Part shown: piece after piece, positions 10,454-30,290 of the stretch
Numbering within the stretch: position 1 is the stretch's first letter
Layout of the letters: each line of letters begins with the position of its first letter
NCBI RefSeq assembly: GCF_001999725.1
Contig: NZ_MDDP01000007.1
Coordinates: 1-46,591 of the forward strand
Direction of reading: 5' to 3'
Length of the DNA: 46,591 nucleotides
Origin: Cellulophaga omnivescoria
GTDB taxonomy: Bacteria; Bacteroidota; Bacteroidia; Flavobacteriales; Flavobacteriaceae
Notes under the pieces: generated by a model
The model's database searches: none
What the model was told of the DNA's origin: nothing
Seen by the model: only the letters and a program-made list of their open reading frames with translations
Translations under genes and position numbers: made by a program

Positions 10454-11385
10454 AACTAAAAATAGCTATTTGTGGCCTTATTGGCCTTGGTTTTATGGCT
10501 TGTAAGCAGAGCGATAAAAAGAAAGAAAAAAAAGAAGACGCAACTCCGGTTGAAGAAACAGTGGTAACTTATAATTTTGATTTAGAAGGTCACCGTGGTG
10601 CTAGAGGTTTAATGCCAGAAAATAGTTTGCCTGCCTTTAAAAAAGCAATAGAATTGGGTGTAAATACTATTGAGCTAGATTTGGCTGTAACTAAGGATAA
10701 ACAAGTTTTGGTTTCTCATGAGCCTTATTTTAATCCGCTTTTTTGTTTAGATTCTCTTGGGAAAACTATTGCTAAAAAAGATTCTATTGCATTAAATATT
10801 TATGAGCATACGTATAAGCAAACTCAAAAATACGATTGTGGTAGTATAGGTAATGTTAAGTTTCCAGAGCAAGAAAAACAGTTTGTAACTAAACCTTTAT
10901 TGTTAGATGTTATAGCTCTTGCAGATTCATTAACAGCAGGTAATGCTACGCCAATAAAATATAATATCGAAATTAAGAGTTTACCAGAGGGAGATGGTAT
11001 TTATCATCCTAACCCAAAAGATTTTTCTGATTTAGTCATAGCGACTATTAAAGATAAAATTGCTGTTGAAAATGTGGTGCTACAAAGTTTTGATTTTAGA
11101 GTGTTGCAATATTTACATCAAAATTATCCAGAGTATACATTGGCTGCTTTAGTATATAAAAATGATGTAAAAACTAATTTAGATACATTAGGGTTTGTGC
11201 CACAAATTTATAGTCCGCTACATAGTATGTTATCTAAAGAGGTCATAGCAGAACTACACTCTAAAAATATGAAAGTTATTCCTTGGACAGTTAATAATGA
11301 GGCTGATATGGAAAATTTACTTGCAATGGGAGTAGATGGTTTAATTACAGATTACCCTAACAAGGCTCTACAATACAGAAAATAA
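10450..11385 (+). CDS. Glycerophosphodiester phosphodiesterase, lipoprotein
   Basis: A GDPD-family TIM-barrel enzyme of 311 residues that splits glycerophosphodiesters (deacylated phospholipids) into glycerol-3-phosphate and an alcohol. The N-terminus is a lipoprotein signal with lipobox Cys18 (GLGFMAC), followed by a Lys-rich linker, so it is membrane-anchored in the cell envelope. Family motifs are intact: GHRGARGLMPENS with the first catalytic His and metal-binding Glu, ELDLAV with Glu and Asp, the second catalytic His in VSHEP, and the Glu of NIEIKSL. It is translationally coupled to the upstream hydrolase and is the last gene before a strong terminator. An envelope phosphate or glycerol scavenging role fits. 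Confidence 0.88.
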   Translation: MKLKIAICGLIGLGFMACKQSDKKKEKKEDATPVEETVVTYNFDLEGHRGARGLMPENSLPAFKKAIELGVNTIELDLAVTKDKQVLVSHEPYFNPLFCLDSLGKTIAKKDSIALNIYEHTYKQTQKYDCGSIGNVKFPEQEKQFVTKPLLLDVIALADSLTAGNATPIKYNIEIKSLPEGDGIYHPNPKDFSDLVIATIKDKIAVENVVLQSFDFRVLQYLHQNYPEYTLAALVYKNDVKTNLDTLGFVPQIYSPLHSMLSKEVIAELHSKNMKVIPWTVNNEADMENLLAMGVDGLITDYPNKALQYRK

Positions 11386-11405
11386 TAACGCAAACAACCA
11401 CAACC

Positions 11406-11439
11406 AAAAAAGCTGTTTCATAATCGAAACAGCTTTTTT
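11406..11439. terminator. Bidirectional terminator between the GDPD gene and trpA
   Basis: AAAAAAGCTGTTTC (11406-11419) pairs perfectly with 11426-11439 around a 6-nt loop. T tracts lie on both strands, so it serves the plus-strand TonB unit and the minus-strand trp operon. Confidence 0.85.
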
Positions 11440-11459
11440 TATGATAAATAAGTTAAAAC

Positions 11460-12221
11460 TTATCTTATTTCTTGTACAAACTCTTTAATGGTATCTACAC
11501 CATTTTCTGTAAGATGTTTTATAAATGCGGAGCCAATAATAGCACCTTTTGCATCTTCTGTAGCTTGTGTAAACGTTTCGTTATTATTAATACCAAAACC
11601 AACAATTTGTGGGTTTTTAAGTTGCATACTAGCTATGCGTTTAAAATAAGCAGTTTGCTCATCTCCAAAGCCAGATTTAGAACCTGTTACACTAGCAGAA
11701 CTTACCATATAAATAAAGGCATCAGAGGCTTCGTCAATTTGTTTAATACGCTCGTTGCTAGTTTGTGGTGTAATTAAAAAGATGTTTTTTAAGTTGTACT
11801 TTTTAAAAATAGCTTCGTATTCATCCTGGTAAACAGCCAAAGGTAAATCTGGCATAATTAAACCATCTATACCAATTTCTGAGCATTTTTTACAAAAGTC
11901 TTCTACACCGTATTGTAGCATTGGGTTAAAATATCCCATAACAATTAAAGGAATAGAAACAGTTTTACGTATATCTTTTAACTGCTTAAAAAGTAAGTTG
12001 GTAGTCATACCATTTTTAAGGGCTATAGTAGAGCTGTTTTGTATGGTTGGACCGTCTGCTAGTGGATCACTAAAAGGCAATCCAATTTCTATCATATCAA
12101 CACCATTAGCTTCTAAATCTTCAATAATTTTAACTGTATTGTTAAGCTCTGGGTAACCTGCTGTAAAGTACAATGAAAGAAGTTTTTTGTCTTCTTGCAT
12201 TTTTTTATTAATTCTGTTCAT
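11460..12221 (-). CDS. trpA: Tryptophan synthase alpha chain
   Basis: It cleaves indole-3-glycerol phosphate to indole and glyceraldehyde-3-phosphate; indole passes to TrpB in the alpha2beta2 complex. The length of 253 residues is normal. The catalytic pair is visible: Glu45 in MIEIGLPFSDP and Asp56 in LADGP. The phosphate-binding end has GFGINN and GAIIGSAF. It is the last gene of the trp operon, 9 bp after trpB, and precedes the shared terminator. Confidence 0.96.
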   Translation of the reverse strand: MNRINKKMQEDKKLLSLYFTAGYPELNNTVKIIEDLEANGVDMIEIGLPFSDPLADGPTIQNSSTIALKNGMTTNLLFKQLKDIRKTVSIPLIVMGYFNPMLQYGVEDFCKKCSEIGIDGLIMPDLPLAVYQDEYEAIFKKYNLKNIFLITPQTSNERIKQIDEASDAFIYMVSSASVTGSKSGFGDEQTAYFKRIASMQLKNPQIVGFGINNNETFTQATEDAKGAIIGSAFIKHLTENGVDTIKEFVQEIR

Positions 12222-12230
12222 TATACAATT

Positions 12231-13412
12231 TTATAAGTTAAAATATTTAATGTAATTATCTAAATCTTTATCACCACGACCAGATAAACTTAATACAACT
12301 ACATCGTCTGGTTTAAAAGTTTTATGTTTAAAAATAGCTAAAGCGTGGCTACTTTCTATAGCAGGTATAATGCCTTCTAGTTTTGTTAGCTCTAAACCAG
12401 ACTGCATAGCCTCATCATCTGTAGCAGAGTAAAACTCACCTCTTCCTGTTTTGTATAAATGTGCGTGTAATGGTCCAACGCCAGGATAATCTAAACCAGC
12501 AGAAATAGAGTAGGGCTCTGTAATTTGTCCGTCATTGGTTTGCATTAATAGTGTTTTACAACCGTGTATAACACCTTCTTTACCAAGCGCAGATGTAGCA
12601 GCGCTTTCGCCAGAATTTATTCCTTTACCTGCAGCTTCTACAGCAATAATACCAACTTCTTCTTCGTGCAAAAAGTGATAATATGTACCAGCAGCATTAC
12701 TACCACCACCAATACACGCTACTACATAATCAGGATTTTCTCGTCCTTCTTTTTCTTTTAGTTGCCATTTTATTTCTTCAGATATTACAGATTGGAATCT
12801 GGTAACCATATCTGGGTAGGGATGTGGCCCAATTGCAGAACCAATAATATAATGTGTGTCTACAGGGTTGTTAATCCAGTCACGAATAGCTTCGTTAGTA
12901 GCATCTTTTAGTGTTTTACTGCCAGACAGTGCAGGTCTTACTTCTGCACCTAACATTTTCATACGTGCTACGTTTGGTGCTTGGCGGGCAATATCAATCT
13001 CACCCATATACACTACACAGTCCATACCCATTAATGCACAAACAGTAGCCGTAGCAACACCGTGTTGGCCAGCGCCGGTCTCAGCAATAATTCGTTTTTT
13101 ACCTAGTTTTTTTGCCATTAAAATTTGGCCAATAGTATTGTTAACCTTATGAGCGCCAGTATGGTTTAGGTCTTCTCTTTTTAAATAGACTTTTGTATTG
13201 TACTTCTCAGACAATCTTTTTGCAAAGTACAAGGGAGACGGCCTACCTACGTAATCTTTTAAAAGCTGATCAAACTCCGCCTTAAAGTCGGGCTCTGCCA
13301 TCACTTTAAGGTAATTTTGGCGTAGATTTTCTACGTTAGGATATAACATTTCTGGAATATAGGCACCGCCAAATGTTCCGTAATATCCTTTTTTTGTTAC
13401 ATTATAATTCAT
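12231..13412 (-). CDS. trpB: Tryptophan synthase beta chain
   Basis: The PLP enzyme that joins indole and serine to give tryptophan. It has 393 residues. The PLP lysine is Lys89 in HTGAHKVNNT, and the phosphate-binding loop GGGSNAAG and the GRGDKD segment near the C-terminus are intact. This is the main TrpB1 form (no N-terminal extension), matching its position next to trpA. The gap to trpF is 31 bp. Confidence 0.97.
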   Translation of the reverse strand: MNYNVTKKGYYGTFGGAYIPEMLYPNVENLRQNYLKVMAEPDFKAEFDQLLKDYVGRPSPLYFAKRLSEKYNTKVYLKREDLNHTGAHKVNNTIGQILMAKKLGKKRIIAETGAGQHGVATATVCALMGMDCVVYMGEIDIARQAPNVARMKMLGAEVRPALSGSKTLKDATNEAIRDWINNPVDTHYIIGSAIGPHPYPDMVTRFQSVISEEIKWQLKEKEGRENPDYVVACIGGGSNAAGTYYHFLHEEEVGIIAVEAAGKGINSGESAATSALGKEGVIHGCKTLLMQTNDGQITEPYSISAGLDYPGVGPLHAHLYKTGRGEFYSATDDEAMQSGLELTKLEGIIPAIESSHALAIFKHKTFKPDDVVVLSLSGRGDKDLDNYIKYFNL

Positions 13413-13443
13413 CTGAATTAGTATTAAGTTTTAAGTACTTTAT

Positions 13444-14085
13444 TTAGATACTTAATGCTGTTTTAAATTCGTTTAATTTTTCAATATTCTTTACTCCTGG
13501 TTCTATTTCAAAACTACTATTTACATCTAAAGCAATGCAATATTTTGCAGCCGTAGTTTTTAAAAATTCTTTAATTTTATGTACATCATCTACACCAATG
13601 CCGCCACTTAAAAAGTAAGGTTTAGTAGACGGATAGTTTTCTAAAACAGACCAGTTAAAAGTGTAGCCGTTACCGCCAGGTAGTTTGCCTTTGGTATCAA
13701 ATAAAAAATAATCGCATACTTTTTCAAAAGGAGTAATAACGCTAAAGTTAAAACTGTCTTTAATAGAAAAAACTTTTATTATTTGTGGTTGTTTACCTTT
13801 TAATCCTAAATTAGAATTTCGTAACCCTTTACAAAACTCGGGAGATTCTTTGCCGTGTAGTTGTACAACATCTAGACTGTATTGGTTAATTTTTTCTACC
13901 ACATAATCTAAATCTGCATCAACAAAAACGCCAACTTTTTTAATGTTTTTTGAAATATTACCCATTTTTCCATTAAAAAACCGAGAAGAAGGTTCCCAAA
14001 AGATAAAACCTAGATAATCTGGTTGCAATGCTGCAACAGCCTCCATATTTTCTAGGTACTTCATACCACAAACTTTTAGTTTCAT
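13444..14085 (-). CDS. trpF: Phosphoribosylanthranilate isomerase
   Basis: It isomerises N-(5'-phosphoribosyl)anthranilate to CdRP, the third step of tryptophan synthesis. The protein has 213 residues with the catalytic Cys6 (KVCGMK) and Asp130 (FDTKG), and phosphate-binding GGIGVDDV near residue 161. Its ATG overlaps the trpC stop by one base (TAATG), so translation is probably coupled. It is a separate protein rather than the TrpCF fusion found in enterobacteria. Confidence 0.95.
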   Translation of the reverse strand: MKLKVCGMKYLENMEAVAALQPDYLGFIFWEPSSRFFNGKMGNISKNIKKVGVFVDADLDYVVEKINQYSLDVVQLHGKESPEFCKGLRNSNLGLKGKQPQIIKVFSIKDSFNFSVITPFEKVCDYFLFDTKGKLPGGNGYTFNWSVLENYPSTKPYFLSGGIGVDDVHKIKEFLKTTAAKYCIALDVNSSFEIEPGVKNIEKLNEFKTALSI

Positions 14086-14867
14086 TAGGCTAAAGATTTA
14101 ATAAAATTGGTGGCACTATCGCCAGGGTTATCAGTCTTCATAAAATTTTCACCTATTAAAAAACCTTTGTAGCCGTACGGTTGCAATTCTTTAATAGCAT
14201 CTATATTGCTAATGCCACTTTCAGATACTTTTACAAAATCATTAGGTATTAACTCAGATAAAGATTTACTTGTGTCTAAACTTACTGTAAAAGTTTTTAA
14301 ATTACGGTTGTTTACGCCTAGCATATCTAAACTAGGCATAATAGATTTGTGTAATTCTTCATCATTATGAACTTCTAATAAAACATCTAAGTTTAAACTT
14401 TTAGCAAACTCAGAAAATCGTTTTATTTCTTCTCTAGTAAGTATAGCTGCTATTAACAAAATAACATCTGCACCATAAGCTTTAGCTTCTAGTATTTGGT
14501 ATTCATCTATAATAAACTCTTTACGTAATAGCGGCATTTGCACGGCTGCTCTAGCGGTTAACAAATCGTCTAAAGAACCACCAAAATATTTGCCATCTGT
14601 TAAAACAGACATACCGCATACACCAGCATTTTGGTAACCAGTAGCAACATCTTGTACTGATAAGCTATTGTTTATTACTGCTTTTGATGGCGATCTTCTT
14701 TTGTGTTCTGCAATAATACCAGAACTACTATTTTTTAATGCAACAGCTAAAGAGTTACAAGGTCTATTAAATAAAACTGAAGCCTCTAATTGAGATACAG
14801 GAATAAGAGTTTTTCTTAAAGCAACTTCTTTACGTTTGTCTAGTACTATTTTTTCTAATATATCCAT
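14085..14867 (-). CDS. trpC: Indole-3-glycerol-phosphate synthase
   Basis: It converts CdRP to indole-3-glycerol phosphate with loss of CO2 and water. A TIM barrel of 260 residues with AEHKRRSPSK (53-62; Glu54 and Lys56 catalytic region), LLRKEFIID with the general-acid lysine, and VSESGI near the C-terminus. It abuts trpD (start directly beside the trpD stop) and overlaps trpF by one base. Confidence 0.96.
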   Translation of the reverse strand: MDILEKIVLDKRKEVALRKTLIPVSQLEASVLFNRPCNSLAVALKNSSSGIIAEHKRRSPSKAVINNSLSVQDVATGYQNAGVCGMSVLTDGKYFGGSLDDLLTARAAVQMPLLRKEFIIDEYQILEAKAYGADVILLIAAILTREEIKRFSEFAKSLNLDVLLEVHNDEELHKSIMPSLDMLGVNNRNLKTFTVSLDTSKSLSELIPNDFVKVSESGISNIDAIKELQPYGYKGFLIGENFMKTDNPGDSATNFIKSLA

Positions 14868-15860
14868 TTATGCACTTAGCTTTTGTAATTTTTTTAATGC
14901 TTCTAAACCTTTACCACTGCGCAAAGATTCTTGCGCCATTAAAAAGCCTTCTTTAGGGGTGATATTTTGTACTGTAGCAATTGCGATACCTGCATTGGCA
15001 CAAACAACATTGTTCTGCGGATCTGTACCTTTACCACTTAAAATATCTACAAATATTTTTGCAGAAGCCTCTACGGTGTCACCACCAACAATGTCTGACT
15101 GTTTAATTTGCTGTACTCCAAAATCCTCTGGTTTAAGCATATTTTCTGATAAGCGTGATATTGTTTTTGTATTACCAGTTAAACTAATTTCATCATAACC
15201 ATCTAATGCGTGTAAAACAGTAAAGTTTTTATCTGTATTTTGATAAAGATAACCGTACATTCTTGCCAGTTCTAAATTGAAAACACCTACCATTTGGTTT
15301 TTTGGAAAAGCAGGGTTTACCATTGGGCCTAACATATTAAAGAATGTTTTTACTGCCAACTCTTTACGTATTGGTGCAACATTTTTCATAGCAGGGTGAA
15401 AAAGTGGTGCGTGTAATACGCATATACCAGCCTCATCAATAGTTTTTTCTAAAAAGCCAACATCATTGCTAAATTTTATACCTAAAGACTCCATAACATT
15501 ACTACTTCCGCATTTGCTAGATACACCGTAGTTACCGTGTTTTGTTACTTTAATACCAGCACCAGCAGTAACAAAAGAGGCAAGCGTAGAAATATTAAAT
15601 GTATCTTTACCGTCACCACCCGTGCCACATAAATCTATTGGATTGTAGGCAGATAAATCTACAGCTAAACAAAGGTCTAGTAATGCATCTCTAAAACCTT
15701 CTAACTCTTCAATAGTAACGCTACGCATCATATAAACGGTTAAAAAAGCTGCAATTTGACTTGTGTTATAATCACCTTTTGCAATATTAACCAAAACATT
15801 TTTTGCGTCTTCTTTAGAAAGAATTTCGTGATTAATTAATCTATTTAATATTGTTTTCAT
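14868..15860 (-). CDS. trpD: Anthranilate phosphoribosyltransferase
   Basis: It transfers phosphoribose from PRPP to anthranilate. The length of 330 residues is standard. The PRPP-binding motif CGTGGDGKDTFNIST begins at residue 78, with KHGNYGVSSKCGSSN following and a metal-binding DE pair in DGYDEIS. It is not fused to TrpG. The gap to trpG is 46 bp. Confidence 0.96.
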   Translation of the reverse strand: MKTILNRLINHEILSKEDAKNVLVNIAKGDYNTSQIAAFLTVYMMRSVTIEELEGFRDALLDLCLAVDLSAYNPIDLCGTGGDGKDTFNISTLASFVTAGAGIKVTKHGNYGVSSKCGSSNVMESLGIKFSNDVGFLEKTIDEAGICVLHAPLFHPAMKNVAPIRKELAVKTFFNMLGPMVNPAFPKNQMVGVFNLELARMYGYLYQNTDKNFTVLHALDGYDEISLTGNTKTISRLSENMLKPEDFGVQQIKQSDIVGGDTVEASAKIFVDILSGKGTDPQNNVVCANAGIAIATVQNITPKEGFLMAQESLRSGKGLEALKKLQKLSA

Positions 15861-15906
15861 TTTTATATTTTTAGTTGAATAAGTAAATTTTTACAAATAG
15901 TTTGTT

Positions 15907-16470
15907 TTACTTATTTACCCAATTTTTCAGCATTTGTTTTCCTTTTGGTGTTAGTACAGACTCTGGATGAAATTGTACAGCGTTAACATCATACACCTTA
16001 TGGCGTAAAGACATTATTTGTCCGTTTTCATCTACAGAAGTAGCTTCTAAAACATCTGGTAGGTCTGAGTTTACAACCCACGAGTGGTATCGGCCAACTT
16101 TTAGCTCGTTACCTAAGCCTGCAAATAAAACATCTTCTTTAATAACTGTAATAGTGGTAGCAATACCGTGGTAAACTTGCTCTAGGTTAACTAATGAACC
16201 TCCAAAAACCTCGCCAATAGCTTGCTGACCTAAACAAACTCCTAAAATTGTTTTGGTAGGAGCGTATGTAGCAATAATTTGTTTTAGTAAACCAGCTTCA
16301 TCTGGAATACCAGGACCTGGAGAAAGTACTATTTTTTCAAAAGCATCTACTTCTTCAAGTGTAAGTTGGTCGTTTCTTTTTACAGTAACATCACAATCTA
16401 AATCTTCTAGGTAGTGCACTAAATTGTATGTAAAACTGTCGTAATTATCTATAACTAATATCTTTTTCAT
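15907..16470 (-). CDS. trpG: Anthranilate synthase glutamine amidotransferase subunit
   Basis: It supplies ammonia from glutamine to TrpE. The class I amidotransferase triad is visible: Cys79 (GVCLGQQ), His168 and Glu170 (QFHPES). The N-terminal IDNYDSFTYNLV is typical of TrpG/PabA. At 187 residues it is a stand-alone subunit. It lies 4 bp after trpE, so coupled synthesis of the two subunits is likely. It may also serve p-aminobenzoate synthesis if no separate PabA exists (inference). Confidence 0.95.
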   Translation of the reverse strand: MKKILVIDNYDSFTYNLVHYLEDLDCDVTVKRNDQLTLEEVDAFEKIVLSPGPGIPDEAGLLKQIIATYAPTKTILGVCLGQQAIGEVFGGSLVNLEQVYHGIATTITVIKEDVLFAGLGNELKVGRYHSWVVNSDLPDVLEATSVDENGQIMSLRHKVYDVNAVQFHPESVLTPKGKQMLKNWVNK

Positions 16471-16474
16471 CTTC

Positions 16475-17872
16475 TTAAATATTCTCAGCTATTTCTAAAG
16501 CTTTGGTTAGTGCTCCTAATTTATTGTATGTTTCTTGTAGTTCGTCTTTTGGGTTAGATGCGGCAACTAAACCAGCGCCAGCTTGGTAATGTAATTGGTG
16601 ATTTTTACTTAAAAAAGTTCTAATCATTATAGCGTGATTAAAATTCCCGTTAAAATCCATAAAACCGATGGCGCCACCATAGTAACCACGACTAGTTTTT
16701 TCGTATTTTTCTATAAGTTGCATAGCCATATGCTTAGGCGCACCGCTTAAAGTACCAGCAGGAAAAGTGTCTGCAACAACCTTCATTGTAGGTATGTTGT
16801 CTTTTTTAATGCCTGTAACTTTAGAGACCAAATGTATTACGTGAGAGAAAAACTGTACCTCTCTATAATTTTCTACGGTAACTGTGTTTCCGTTTCTACT
16901 TAAATCATTTCTGGCCAAATCTACCAGCATAACGTGTTCGCTATTTTCCTTATCGTCTTCTGTTAATTCTTTGGCAATAATAGCATCTTTTTCATCATTA
17001 CCGGTACGTTTAAAAGTACCTGCAATTGGGTGAATTTCTGCTTTACCATCTTTTACAATAATTTGTGCCTCTGGCGAGCTACCAAATATTTTAAAATCGC
17101 CATAATCAAAATAAAACAGGTAAGGAGATGGGTTTACAGAACGTAGAGCTCGGTATACATTAAATTCGTCTCCTTTAAATTCTTGAGAAAATCTTCTAGA
17201 TAACACTAATTGAAAAACATCTCCGCGCTGACAGTGTTTTTTTGCTAAATCTACGTGCTCTAAAAAATCTTCATCTGTTAAGTTAGAAGTTGCTTCTCCT
17301 TTTTTAGAGAAATTATAGGTAGCAAAGTTTCTTACGTTTAATAGTTGTTCTATTTCTGAGATATTACTTTCTGTGTTAAAGGTATGTGCAAATATGTAGG
17401 CTTCATTTTTAAAATGATTAATAGCAATTACATTTTTGTAAACTGCATAATACATATCTGGTATGGTAACCGAGTTATCTTTTTTAGCAATATTTACATC
17501 TTCAAAATAACGAACAGAGTCATAAGCCATATAGCCAAAAAGGCCGTTATTTATAAATTTAAAGTTATTATTGTTAGAGCTAAACTTTGTGCTAAAATTG
17601 TGTAAAACAGTAGCTACGTCTACAGTGTTGTCTATAGTTGTAGTATTGCTAGTCCCATCTGGATAGTTTTCAAAAATGGTTTCGTTTTCTATTTTTATAG
17701 ATGCTATTGGGTTACAGCAGATATAAGAAAAACTATTATTATTTGCGTGGTAATCGCTACTTTCTAATAAAATACTATTAGGAAACCTGTCTCTAATTTT
17801 TAAGTACATACTAACAGGAGTAATGGTGTCTGCCAGTATTTTTTTGTAGTGCGATGTTAGATTGTATTTCAT
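16475..17872 (-). CDS. trpE: Anthranilate synthase component I
   Basis: It makes anthranilate from chorismate, the committed step of the pathway. It has 465 residues with an N-terminal regulatory lobe and a C-terminal chorismate-binding domain. The LLES motif (35-38) of the tryptophan feedback site is intact, so end-product inhibition is expected. C-terminal hallmarks are GSSPEAQ, HPIAGTFKRTG, DLARNDL, FPAGTLSGAPK and GYYGGAIGF. The annotated ATG is 22 bases downstream of the attenuator U-tract, so its expression depends on read-through of the leader. Confidence 0.97.
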   Translation of the reverse strand: MKYNLTSHYKKILADTITPVSMYLKIRDRFPNSILLESSDYHANNNSFSYICCNPIASIKIENETIFENYPDGTSNTTTIDNTVDVATVLHNFSTKFSSNNNNFKFINNGLFGYMAYDSVRYFEDVNIAKKDNSVTIPDMYYAVYKNVIAINHFKNEAYIFAHTFNTESNISEIEQLLNVRNFATYNFSKKGEATSNLTDEDFLEHVDLAKKHCQRGDVFQLVLSRRFSQEFKGDEFNVYRALRSVNPSPYLFYFDYGDFKIFGSSPEAQIIVKDGKAEIHPIAGTFKRTGNDEKDAIIAKELTEDDKENSEHVMLVDLARNDLSRNGNTVTVENYREVQFFSHVIHLVSKVTGIKKDNIPTMKVVADTFPAGTLSGAPKHMAMQLIEKYEKTSRGYYGGAIGFMDFNGNFNHAIMIRTFLSKNHQLHYQAGAGLVAASNPKDELQETYNKLGALTKALEIAENI

Positions 17873-17893
17873 TTTAACTTTAAATTTTTAAAT

Positions 17894-17927
17894 AAAAAAA
17901 AGGCTTGTCGTGATAGACAAGCCTTTT
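17894..17927 (-). terminator. Attenuator terminator of the trp operon
   Basis: On the minus strand AAAAGGCTTGTC (17927-17916) pairs perfectly with GACAAGCCTTTT (17909-17898) around a 6-nt loop. It runs into a U-tract at 17900-17894. It stands between the Trp-rich leader peptide and trpE, which is the position of a transcription attenuator rather than an end-of-operon terminator. Confidence 0.88.
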
Positions 17928-17961
17928 ATGTATATTGTTACAATGGTGCTTTGCTCACGAC
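17907..17961 (-). promoter_or_regulatory. Candidate antiterminator of the trp leader
   Basis: Leader RNA GUCGUGA (17961-17955, containing the leader stop codon) is exactly complementary to UCACGAC (17913-17907), which covers the terminator loop and the start of its 3' arm. Next to it, CAAAGC (17953-17948) can pair with GCUUG (17922-17918) in the terminator 5' arm with one bulged A. About 12 pairs in two helices would exclude the terminator. Found by eye; not folded by program. Confidence 0.55.
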
Positions 17962-18008
17962 GTTTGACGTAAGTTGTTCCACCACCATATGTTAGTTGTT
18001 ATTTTCAT
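17955..18008 (-). CDS. trpL: trp operon leader peptide (17 residues, Trp-Trp-Trp)
   Basis: The ATG at 18008 opens a frame encoding MKITTNIWWWNNLRQTS and stopping at TGA (17957-17955). The three consecutive TGG codons occupy 17987-17979. Trp is the rarest residue, so three in a row in a 17-codon ORF before a trp operon and a terminator is diagnostic of ribosome-mediated attenuation. A ribosome stalled at the Trp codons would leave 17961-17955 free to form the antiterminator. A ribosome reaching the stop would cover it and allow termination. The name trpL is by analogy with enterobacteria; there is no sequence homology to claim. Confidence 0.85.
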   Translation of the reverse strand: MKITTNIWWWNNLRQTS

Positions 18009-18013
18009 TAGGT

Positions 18014-18044
18014 CAAATATATAAAGGAATTTTATAATACCCAA
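18014..18044 (-). promoter_or_regulatory. Predicted trp operon promoter
   Basis: On the minus strand TTG (18044-18042) is followed after 20 bp by TATATTTG (18021-18014), a full match to the Bacteroidota pattern. It lies in the short gap between the yceI terminator and the leader ORF. The -7 box ends only 5 nt before the leader ATG, so the mRNA would have almost no 5' UTR. Confidence 0.7.
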
Positions 18045-18066
18045 CAAGAGTTGCATAAAAAATAAA

Positions 18067-18088
18067 AAACCTCACAAAAGTGAGGTTT
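18067..18088 (-). terminator. Terminator after the YceI gene
   Basis: The 9-bp stem AAACCTCAC / GTGAGGTTT with a 4-nt loop is followed on the minus strand by a T-rich run (18069-18061). It separates the marR-yceI unit from the trp operon on the same strand. Confidence 0.82.
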
Positions 18089-18113
18089 AAAACATTTATT
18101 GGTTTTGTAAGTT

Positions 18114-18674
18114 TTAGAACTGCAAATCTACAACAAGGTCAAAATCGTCATAAATAGCCTTGTCTCCTAAGTTTTCTATAAAGCTACCAGACTTGTATTT
18201 AATGTCAAAATCGGTTCTGTCTATTTTTAAACTAGCAGTTGCTTTACTACCATAAACAGATATTGTAAAGTCTACCGGTTTAGTAATACCTTTAATAGTT
18301 AGTTTTCCTTTGGCAGTATAAGCATTTTTACCTGTTGCTTTATTCACTGTAAAAACCAATTTAGAAGTTGTATTTTTTTCAGTGCTAAAGAAATCATCAG
18401 ACTTTAAGTGACCTTCTAATTTTTCTTTCATACCAGCTTCTAAGTCAGTAACAGTTAGTGTTGTCATATCTACAACAAATTCACCAGCAGAAAGTTTATC
18501 GTTTTTAAATACTAATGAACCGTCTTTAAATTGTAATGTACCTTCGTGAGAACCAGTTACTTTATATCCTTTCCAGGTAATATTACTAGCCTCAGTGTTA
18601 ATCTTTTTTTCTTGAGCAGTTATTGATGCTACAGAAAATACTAATGCTAAAATGCTAATTGATAATTTTTTCAT
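18114..18674 (-). CDS. YceI family periplasmic protein
   Basis: A 186-residue lipocalin-like beta-barrel protein of the YceI family, which bind polyisoprenoid-type amphiphiles in a hydrophobic pocket. Signal peptide residues 1-20 (ending ASITAQ) predict export to the periplasm. Family features include NTEASNITWKGYKVTGSHEG at the start of the mature domain, LEGHLKSDDFF, and GKLTIKGITKPVDF. It sits 20 bp after the marR gene in one unit, so it is the likely regulated target. The exact ligand and role are not shown by the sequence. Confidence 0.9.
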   Translation of the reverse strand: MKKLSISILALVFSVASITAQEKKINTEASNITWKGYKVTGSHEGTLQFKDGSLVFKNDKLSAGEFVVDMTTLTVTDLEAGMKEKLEGHLKSDDFFSTEKNTTSKLVFTVNKATGKNAYTAKGKLTIKGITKPVDFTISVYGSKATASLKIDRTDFDIKYKSGSFIENLGDKAIYDDFDLVVDLQF

Positions 18675-18694
18675 AATTGTTGTTTTTATTTGTG

Positions 18695-19153
18695 TTAATT
18701 GTCTGTGTTAAATTTATCTAATACTTTGTTTAAAGTTTGTAAATCTTCATCGTTTATGTTTTTTAGAAGGCTTTTTTCCATACTAAGCATTGCATTACTC
18801 ATTTTAATGAGTTCTTCTTCGCCTTTTTTAGTAATGTAAATTTCTATTTTTCTTCTATTTTCTTTGCAAACAGTACGTTTTACAAAATCTTTTAAAATTA
18901 ATTTGTCTACTAACCTCGTGGTGTTACTCATTTTAGACACCATTCTGTCATTTAAAGTACTAAGGTTTGCAGGTTTGCCATTTTGTCCTTTTAATATGCG
19001 CAATACATTAAATTGTTGTGCAGATACATCAAAAGGTTTTAGGGCTTCAGCTGTTTTTTCAGTTATACTTTGGTGTATTAACAATAGATGAATAATAGTC
19101 CTACCTTTTAAAGGTATAGGCTTATTTGTTTTTAAAATTCTTTCTACATCCAT
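18695..19153 (-). CDS. MarR family transcriptional regulator
   Basis: A 152-residue winged-helix protein. The dimerisation helices flank a wHTH at about residues 45-105 (QQFNVLRILKGQNGKPANLSTLNDRM, then NTTRLVDKLILKDFVKR and a wing with ENRRKIEIYITKKGEEEL). It is the first gene of a two-gene unit with yceI and is divergent from a rhodanese gene. Palindromes overlap its own promoter region, as is usual for autoregulated MarR proteins that release DNA on binding phenolic or oxidising ligands. The inducer is unknown. Confidence 0.9.
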   Translation of the reverse strand: MDVERILKTNKPIPLKGRTIIHLLLIHQSITEKTAEALKPFDVSAQQFNVLRILKGQNGKPANLSTLNDRMVSKMSNTTRLVDKLILKDFVKRTVCKENRRKIEIYITKKGEEELIKMSNAMLSMEKSLLKNINDEDLQTLNKVLDKFNTDN

Positions 19154-19165
19154 GTTGTTACAACA
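19153..19165. promoter_or_regulatory. Candidate MarR operator 1 (6-1-6 palindrome)
   Basis: TGTTGT-T-ACAACA is a perfect inverted repeat abutting the marR start codon. Together with the palindrome at 19167-19178 it forms a tandem pair. It is an operator by context only. Confidence 0.4.
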
Positions 19166-19166
19166 A

Positions 19167-19178
19167 TTGTATATACAA
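19167..19178. promoter_or_regulatory. Candidate MarR operator 2 (12-bp perfect palindrome)
   Basis: TTGTATATACAA is self-complementary. It overlaps the 3' end of the predicted marR -7 box (TACATTTG on the minus strand, 19183-19176) and its likely start site, which suits autorepression. Confidence 0.5.
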
Positions 19179-19183
19179 ATGTA
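19176..19183 (-). promoter_or_regulatory. -7 box of marR-yceI
   Basis: Minus-strand TACATTTG matches TAnnTTTG, 22 bases before the marR ATG. It overlaps the 12-bp palindrome by 3 bases. Confidence 0.45.
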
Positions 19184-19200
19184 TGTAATTTTATTTTAAT

Positions 19201-28243: not shown

Positions 28244-28317
28244 GCCGATGTAGCTCAGCTGGCTAGAGCAGCTGATTTGTAATCAGCAGGTCGTGGGTTC
28301 GAGTCCCTCCATCGGCT
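28244..28317 (+). tRNA. tRNA-Thr (TGT)
   Basis: A 74-nt cloverleaf with acceptor GCCGATG/CATCGGC, anticodon loop TTTGTAA (anticodon TGT) and T-arm GTGGG-TTCGAGT-CCCTC-type pairing. The CCA end is not encoded. It is the first of four tRNAs before tuf. Confidence 0.95.
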
Positions 28318-28400
28318 CTAAATTTTGAAAATTAAGTCTTGGTTTTAAGTTTTAAATCAAGTATTTTTGAAAGTTCATTTTGTACTGAAAAAAAAGTTTT

Positions 28401-28482
<82 letters not shown>

Positions 28483-28582
28483 CAAATTAGTTAAAGCAAA
28501 ATAAAATTAGGTTGTTTTGTTTGAAATAATGAAAGTTGTGAGTTTTTAAATTTTTTTTAGAAATTTGCACAAAAAAAAGAAT

Positions 28583-28655
28583 GCGAGAGTAGCTCAGTTG
28601 GTAGAGCGTCAGCCTTCCAAGCTGAATGTCGCCGGTTCGAACCCGGTCTCTCGCT
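28583..28655 (+). tRNA. tRNA-Gly (TCC)
   Basis: A 73-nt cloverleaf. Acceptor GCGAGAG/CTCTCGC, anticodon loop CTTCCAA (TCC), T-loop TTCGAAC. Confidence 0.95.
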
Positions 28656-28695
28656 CTAAGTTTTTTTTAGATTAAAGTATCTAAAAAAGAGTTGT

Positions 28696-28800
28696 GTGAA
28701 AACATATTTTGAAGTTGATTTTTTTGGAAAGAGAAAATATGTTTTTATAGACAGCGATGTCGTTCCTGATTATAGGCATTGGTTTTTAAGTTATTTTTAA
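28696..28800 (+). CDS. Possible 34-residue small protein between tRNA genes
   Basis: A GTG at 28696 opens a frame to TAA at 28800. The product has a natural-looking composition rich in aromatic and charged residues (KTYFEVDFFGKRKYVF, then DSDVVPDYRHWFLSYF), unlike the biased translations of noncoding AT-rich DNA. There is no recognised family and no clear promoter of its own. It could be a real small protein expressed from the tRNA transcript, a gene remnant, or chance. Confidence 0.3.
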   Translation: MKTYFEVDFFGKRKYVFIDSDVVPDYRHWFLSYF

Positions 28801-28831
28801 ATAATAACGATTAAATTAAACAACGTTTTAC

Positions 28832-28903
28832 GCCGGTGTAGCTCAGGGGTAGAGCGTTTCCTTGGTAAGGAAGAGGTCACGAGTTCAAATCTCGTCATTG
28901 GCT
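28832..28903 (+). tRNA. tRNA-Thr (GGT)
   Basis: A 72-nt cloverleaf with anticodon loop TTGGTAA (GGT). The acceptor GCCGGTG/CATTGGC contains two G-U pairs. With the TGT isoacceptor upstream, it covers most Thr codons. tuf begins 53 bp downstream. Confidence 0.93.
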
Positions 28904-28956
28904 CAAGAAGTATAATTTGTACACTAATATATAACTAAGATTAAAACTCATTAAAC

Positions 28957-30211: not shown

Positions 30212-30284
30212 ACGGGCGTAGCTCAGTTGGTAGAGCACTGGTCTCCAAAACCAGGTGTCGGGAGTTCGAGTCTCTCCGCCCGTG
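30212..30284 (+). tRNA. tRNA-Trp (CCA)
   Basis: A 73-nt cloverleaf. Acceptor ACGGGCG/CGCCCGT, anticodon loop CTCCAAA (CCA), discriminator G as in other tRNA-Trp. Its usual place is between tuf and secE. It is the tRNA whose charging would be sensed by the trp leader peptide at 17955-18008. Confidence 0.95.
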
Positions 30285-30290
30285 CAATAG

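Follow-up and report, generated by a model that had tools for sequence, protein, structure and literature searches.

A probable trp attenuator of the Bacteroid-trp family in Cellulophaga omnivescoria and the predicted 5′ end of its leader mRNA

The trp attenuator of Escherichia coli (trpL) is built from tandem Trp codons, mutually exclusive hairpins and a terminator located before trpE. In Rfam the family RF01692, Bacteroid-trp, is described as a 'Bacteroidete tryptophan peptide leader RNA'. The part of Weinberg et al. 2010 available to us (PMC2864571) lists it as a Bacteroidetes motif, with 'y' for RNA and for cis-regulation and 'n' for switch. The accessible text on Flavobacterium psychrophilum (PMC9723704; PMC6414381) names Bacteroid-trp upstream of the trp operon, likens it to the E. 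coli attenuator, and speaks of 'strong clues' for leader-peptide attenuation ahead of amino-acid operons. Among the papers listed from the open-licence literature, judged by titles and the openings of abstracts and weak as evidence of absence, none puts trp attenuation in Bacteroidota to a direct experiment, and the C. omnivescoria trp locus is not described in the available passages of two papers on leader peptides (PMC1262725, PMC4833913).

Two further points of comparison bear on how a leader ORF is translated. According to the accessible part of PMC6847099, the Bacteroidota are a phylum without Shine–Dalgarno sequences, a difference from E. coli. In Sinorhizobium meliloti the trpL / rnTrpL RNA starts at the ATG of its Trp leader ORF, as given in the text of PMC7298713 at hand.

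The trp operon and its leader

The window is a stretch of 46,591 nt of C. omnivescoria DNA (assembly GCF_001999725.1, contig NZ_MDDP01000007.1, positions 1 to 46,591 of the forward strand). It contains the genes of the trp operon on the minus strand, preceded by the leader region. The features are listed below in the direction of transcription, with the basis of each in brackets.

18067..18088, minus strand: terminator-like hairpin 3′ of the upstream YceI-like gene (terminator scan)
17916..18028, minus strand: match to Rfam RF01692 Bacteroid-trp, 65.8 bits against a gathering cut-off of 49 (covariance model)
18014..18021, minus strand: putative −7 promoter element TATATTTG (sequence; Bacteroidota consensus TAHHTTTG from the available text of PMC6847099)
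18008..18009, minus strand: predicted transcription start, 0–1 nt before the leader ATG (published spacing of −7 box and start site)
17955..18008, minus strand: leader peptide ORF MKITTNIWWWNNLRQTS, 17 codons followed by UGA (sequence; leader ORF in 171/171 loci)
17939..17989, minus strand: protector hairpin (predicted folds; resembles the RF01692 structure)
17979..17987, minus strand: three tandem TGG (Trp) codons (sequence; WWW in 169/171 loci, WW in 2/171)
17955..17961, minus strand: antiterminator strand GUCGUGA, including the stop codon (sequence, pairing scan, folds)
17948..17951, minus strand: AAGC, paired in the antiterminator with GCUU 17922–17919 of the terminator 5′ arm (predicted folds)
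17898..17927, minus strand: intrinsic terminator, 12 bp stem and 6 nt loop (terminator scan)
17907..17913, minus strand: UCACGAC, the partner of GUCGUGA, comprising four loop bases and three of the 3′ arm (sequence, pairing scan)
17894..17901, minus strand: U tract, overlapping the 3′ arm (sequence)
11460..17872, minus strand: trpE-trpG-trpD-trpC-trpF-trpB-trpA in a single run (NCBIfam matches)

TrpD, TrpC, TrpB and TrpA exceed the curated NCBIfam cut-offs and TrpG exceeds a subfamily cut-off; for TrpE and TrpF the trp families are the best matches, yet the scores lie under the cut-offs. TrpE reads NSILLESSD, in which the LLES motif is intact. At the other end of the operon a 15-pair terminator-like hairpin (11406–11439, minus strand) lies directly 3′ of trpA and is likely to be where the operon ends. 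About 12 kb from the attenuator, which should sense its charging, there is a tRNA-Trp (cca) gene (30212–30285, plus strand), close to tRNA genes for Thr, Tyr, Gly and Thr (28244–28904).

The YceI-like gene upstream has its own terminator-like hairpin (18088–18067), so that the trp promoter is probably located within the 58 bases between that hairpin and the leader ORF. On the downstream side the terminator comprises a 5′ arm (17927–17916), a loop (17915–17910) and a 3′ arm (17909–17898), with 12 perfect base pairs. The T run is separated by 21 nt from the ATG of trpE at 17872. The terminator of the attenuator is one of seven terminator-like sites found in the region 11000–19200, against 4.0 expected. 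The leader RNA is far more stable than its dinucleotide shuffles (MFE z −4.88), none of 200 being equally stable.

The leader can pair in two ways. In the protector hairpin the arm containing the Trp codons (17989–17980) is paired with 17948–17939, while the inner sequence CUUACG (17973–17968) is paired with CGUGAG (17959–17954). Alternatively GUCGUGA (17961–17955) is the exact reverse complement of UCACGAC (17913–17907). Each element, the exact complementarity of the partners and their conservation can be read directly from the nucleotide sequence. The original prediction had described a 17-codon ORF with three consecutive TGG codons (17987–17979), a perfect 12-bp terminator (17927–17898) with a U-tract, and then trpE; all of these are present at those positions on the minus strand. 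It had further proposed that GUCGUGA carries the stop codon of the leader and pairs exactly with the terminator loop and 3′ arm, as is borne out by the sequence, and that a neighbouring helix blocks the 5′ arm. The latter corresponds in the predicted folds to the pairing of AAGC (17951–17948) with GCUU (17922–17919).

Relatives, alternative pairing and ribosome position

At E ≤ 0.001, RF01692 is matched in all 18 genomes of the genus (14 over the cut-off), in 208 of 299 genomes of the family Flavobacteriaceae (184 over the cut-off) and in 30 of 296 genomes of a sample of the phylum (28 over the cut-off), 28 of these 30 belonging to the same family. A set of 171 loci was compared, made up of the copy in the window and 170 relatives. 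It was obtained from 173 by removing L154 and L173, which repeat L069 and L070; L005 and L008 do not differ from L004 and L007 within the 100 bases that were aligned against each other. Eighteen loci are from the genus of the window and two (L052 and L071) are from outside the family. The weaker of the 208 family matches are absent among the matches listed, so the 171 loci lean toward strong matches.

In every locus trpE lies downstream on the same strand, with 0–150 nt between terminator and trpE in 164. An in-frame leader ORF of 13–24 residues is found in all 171, and the first Trp is at position 8 or 9 of the peptide in 167. The leader stop codon is UGA in 100 loci, UAA in 60 and UAG in 11. 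In the window it falls within the antiterminator strand, while relatives whose peptides end with WWWCFRN stop upstream of the strand. The conservation of WWW is partly circular, since the UGG run is part of the model through which most loci came, and TGGTGG was required by the ORF finder; the frame, start and stop of the leader are the less circular part.

An independent check on the Trp codons is provided by loci reached through TrpE. By TrpE search, 279 of the 299 genomes of the family have trpE. Among about 72 genomes with trpE and no RF01692 match, the 12 loci with a printed TrpE position (L174, L175, L177–L185 and L187) were examined. All 12 have a short ORF with WWW (11 loci) or WW (one locus), and inspection by eye places a GC-rich terminator hairpin upstream of trpE in each. 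The family search with RF01692 used stricter filters, so that a missed locus is not automatically below the cut-off, and the 12 were therefore rescored directly. None reaches the cut-off; 11 score 33.7–44.6 bits and one is absent at E ≤ 1. The element thus extends beyond what the RF01692 cut-off admits. The original prediction had looked to relatives for retention of the Trp codons and the alternative helices, and both are conserved in the relatives compared.

Termination in the leader would set free an RNA of roughly 110 nt that carries a short ORF. By analogy with rnTrpL and peTrpL of S. meliloti, for which the accessible part of PMC7298713 provides the precedent, the product of termination might in addition persist as a stable short RNA or leaderless mini-mRNA with a function in trans. 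The tail of the leader peptide differs among genera, which argues against this, and we regard such a second function as improbable.

Returning to attenuation in cis, the antiterminator pairing scores 12 or more in 157 of the 171 loci, compared with 4.8% of leaders whose letters had been plainly shuffled. The commonest best pairings are UCGUGAA with UUCACGA (62 loci) and GUCGUGA with UCACGAC (52 loci), the remainder being mostly shorter or longer versions of these. Pairs were counted in a fixed register in 170 loci, a single locus scoring below 10 having been excluded. At six positions 157 to 170 of these loci have a pair, while the seventh pair of the window, to the third base of the 3′ arm, is present in just 75. 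On shuffling of partners the six positions fall only modestly, to 150 to 163 (for example from 170 to 159 of 170 at loop position −2), because the antiterminator bases are mostly invariant. Compensated pairs occur in a handful of loci. The antiterminator helix is therefore conserved with some covariation, and the covariation is not strong.

One of the two loci outside the family, L052, belongs to another family of the class. Its leader reads YWW, and its terminator, CCUGUCGC with GCGACAGG, is quite unlike that of the window. By eye, GUCGUAAGG on the 5′ side of this terminator seems capable of pairing with its loop and 3′ arm, although the automatic scan picked another pairing.

The position of the ribosome was mimicked by folding solely the RNA 3′ of it, with 3 or 5 bases of the terminator 3′ arm made. 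With 5 bases of the arm and a footprint of 13 nt the antiterminator has a probability above 0.5 in 166 of 171 loci when the ribosome is at the third Trp codon (W3), in 166 at W2 and in 151 at W1, in one locus when it is at the stop codon, and in 26 when there is no ribosome; five loci are thus at or below 0.5 behind W3. The outcome is alike when the footprint is set to 11 or 15 nt. Behind a stall at W3 the bases of the loop and 3′ arm are held by the leader in 168 of 171 real loci, against 64 of 513 shuffles that preserve dinucleotides. In 163 of 171 loci the inner 8 nt of the 5′ arm are paired with the leader, the mean probability exceeding 0.4. In 170 of the 171 loci the free leader RNA keeps strand 2 within its protector hairpin as long as the terminator has yet to be made, consistent with little read-through on leaders that carry no ribosome.

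Folds with longer arms were calculated for the window, all other loci being folded at 3 and 5 bases. With 5 bases the predicted fold of the window switches from Panti 0.99 at W3 to 0.00 at the stop codon. With 8 bases the antiterminator is retained at W3 (0.96), split at W2 (0.62) and lost at W1 (0.01), and the stalls that should work best on this modelling are those at W2 or W3. Once all 12 bases are present the terminator prevails in all states, with Pterm 0.98 behind the W3 stall. The completed terminator is thus favoured at equilibrium, so that antitermination must be kinetic. The switch between terminator and antiterminator is in this way predicted by in-silico folding, and the logic put forward in the original prediction, that a ribosome stalled at Trp frees the antiterminator while one at the stop codon covers it, is reproduced.

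We conclude with high confidence that this stretch is a ribosome-mediated transcription attenuator of the trp operon and a member of RF01692. The promoter at 18014–18021 would make a leader RNA whose ORF has three tandem Trp codons. When charged tRNA-Trp is plentiful the ribosome would reach the stop codon and cover GUCGUGA (17961–17955), allowing the terminator to form, and transcription would stop before trpE. When charged tRNA-Trp is scarce the ribosome would be stalled on the Trp codons and the protector hairpin opened. GUCGUGAGCAAAGC would then pair with three parts of the terminator: GCUU in its 5′ arm, its loop and the bases that open its 3′ arm. With this antiterminator in place the polymerase would continue into trpEGDCFBA. 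We infer the promoter, a start at or adjoining the ATG, and the response to Trp.

If the leader RNA were instead sensed by a factor other than the ribosome, such as a Trp-binding protein or a riboswitch, the ORF would be incidental. The terminator alone is compatible with such a sensor, and the free RNA also folds stably. Against it, an in-frame start, Trp codons and stop are present in all 171 loci despite changes in length, the predicted fold switches in the right direction with the position of the ribosome, and the motif is given 'n' for switch in the available part of Weinberg et al. 2010; a sensor of this kind is very unlikely. A constitutive terminator, with a leader that merely sets basal read-through, agrees with the equilibrium preference of the complete arm in the window, but it leaves both the WWW run and the conserved complement of the loop and 3′ arm unexplained and can be set aside with similar assurance.

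Predicted start of the leader mRNA

An attenuator of this type is ordinary in kind and not new, as follows from its membership of RF01692, published in 2010. The sole fresh point is that the leader ORF probably starts at the first base or two of its own mRNA. The −7 box lies exactly 5 nt from the leader ATG. In the accessible text on F. johnsoniae (PMC6847099) promoters were taken as probable when the −7 box is 4 or 5 nt before the transcription start, and on this spacing the predicted 5′ UTR is 0–1 nt. A scan for sigma-70 promoters, the wrong promoter type for Bacteroidota, returned 35 sites against 33.4 expected from shuffles.

The spacing from −7 box to ATG is bimodal among the 171 loci. 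It is 0–4 nt in 3 loci, 5–8 nt in 51, 9–12 nt in 13, 14–22 nt in 92 and more than 22 nt in 6; the remaining 6 loci have no exact −7 box and are excluded from the spacing classes. The 5–8 nt class is found in 29 of 113 genera, and 31 loci, from 21 genera, have a spacing of exactly 5 nt. In the genus of the window the spacing is 5 or 6 nt at 17 of 18 loci and 8 nt at the other. The three loci with 0–4 nt (L046, L051 and L165) probably reflect mis-called starts or −7 boxes and were classed as leadered; after this no genus contains both spacing classes, many of the 113 being represented by one locus. Counted as leaderless instead, they give 14 changes on the TrpE tree and two genera (g78 and g128) with both classes.

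On that tree, from which 6 of the 171 loci with short pieces of TrpE are excluded, the spacing classes require at least 11 changes, compared with 42.8 for shuffled labels; five are forced by well-supported branches of what is a weak tree, 94 of its 165 rows being less than half filled and 67 of its 162 inner branches open. Within the genome of C. omnivescoria itself TATATTTG-N5-ATG occurs 14 times against 11 in a reversed control, and the N18 spacing 13 times against 8. The N5 count is close to that of its control, so that spacing alone is no evidence, and the argument is from recurrence across genera.

The published leaderless share in F. psychrophilum is 5.5%. In the text available to us, about 3.7% of leaders in B. 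thetaiotaomicron are shorter than 10 nt (PMC7366714), and for F. johnsoniae genes with a probable promoter 13% have leaders of 10 nt or less and 87% have longer ones (PMC6847099). No leaderless trp leader in Bacteroidota was found among the titles and abstract openings listed from the open-licence literature.

Judged from promoter spacing, the evidence leans, short of firm confidence, towards about a quarter of the genera examined (29/113, including that of the window) translating the sensor peptide from a leaderless mRNA that would start at the ATG or a few bases before it, with most others keeping a leader of about 9–18 nt. The mode would have switched repeatedly among genera with the WWW and antiterminator design fixed. 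If so, the attenuator would let leaderless and leadered initiation be compared in nature with a single conserved output, in a phylum that lacks Shine–Dalgarno sequences. If the predicted starts are right, it would offer a testable case of leaderless translation serving regulation in Bacteroidota.

Comparison with known systems

The comparative analysis supports classical leader-peptide trp attenuation as widespread in Flavobacteriaceae. The closest described system is RF01692 itself, the match spanning model positions 1–131. The Trp codons, the protector hairpin and the GGCUUGUC 5′ arm are common to both. The model ends at the 5′ arm of the terminator, without the partner of the antiterminator in the loop and 3′ arm. 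The antiterminator supplied here is thus the part left out of the Rfam model, and loci bearing the element have been found below the Rfam cut-off. The leader-peptide attenuators described for F. psychrophilum belong to another species, and the trp locus is not detailed in the available text of those papers (PMC9723704; PMC6414381).

The likeness to S. meliloti trpL / rnTrpL is an RNA start at the leader ATG, predicted here from the −7 box; the phylum and the promoter type are different. With E. coli trpL the element shares tandem Trp codons, mutually exclusive hairpins and a terminator ahead of trpE. In contrast to trpL, the antiterminator draws on the loop together with part of the 5′ arm and the beginning of the 3′ arm, and its strand overlaps the stop codon of the leader.
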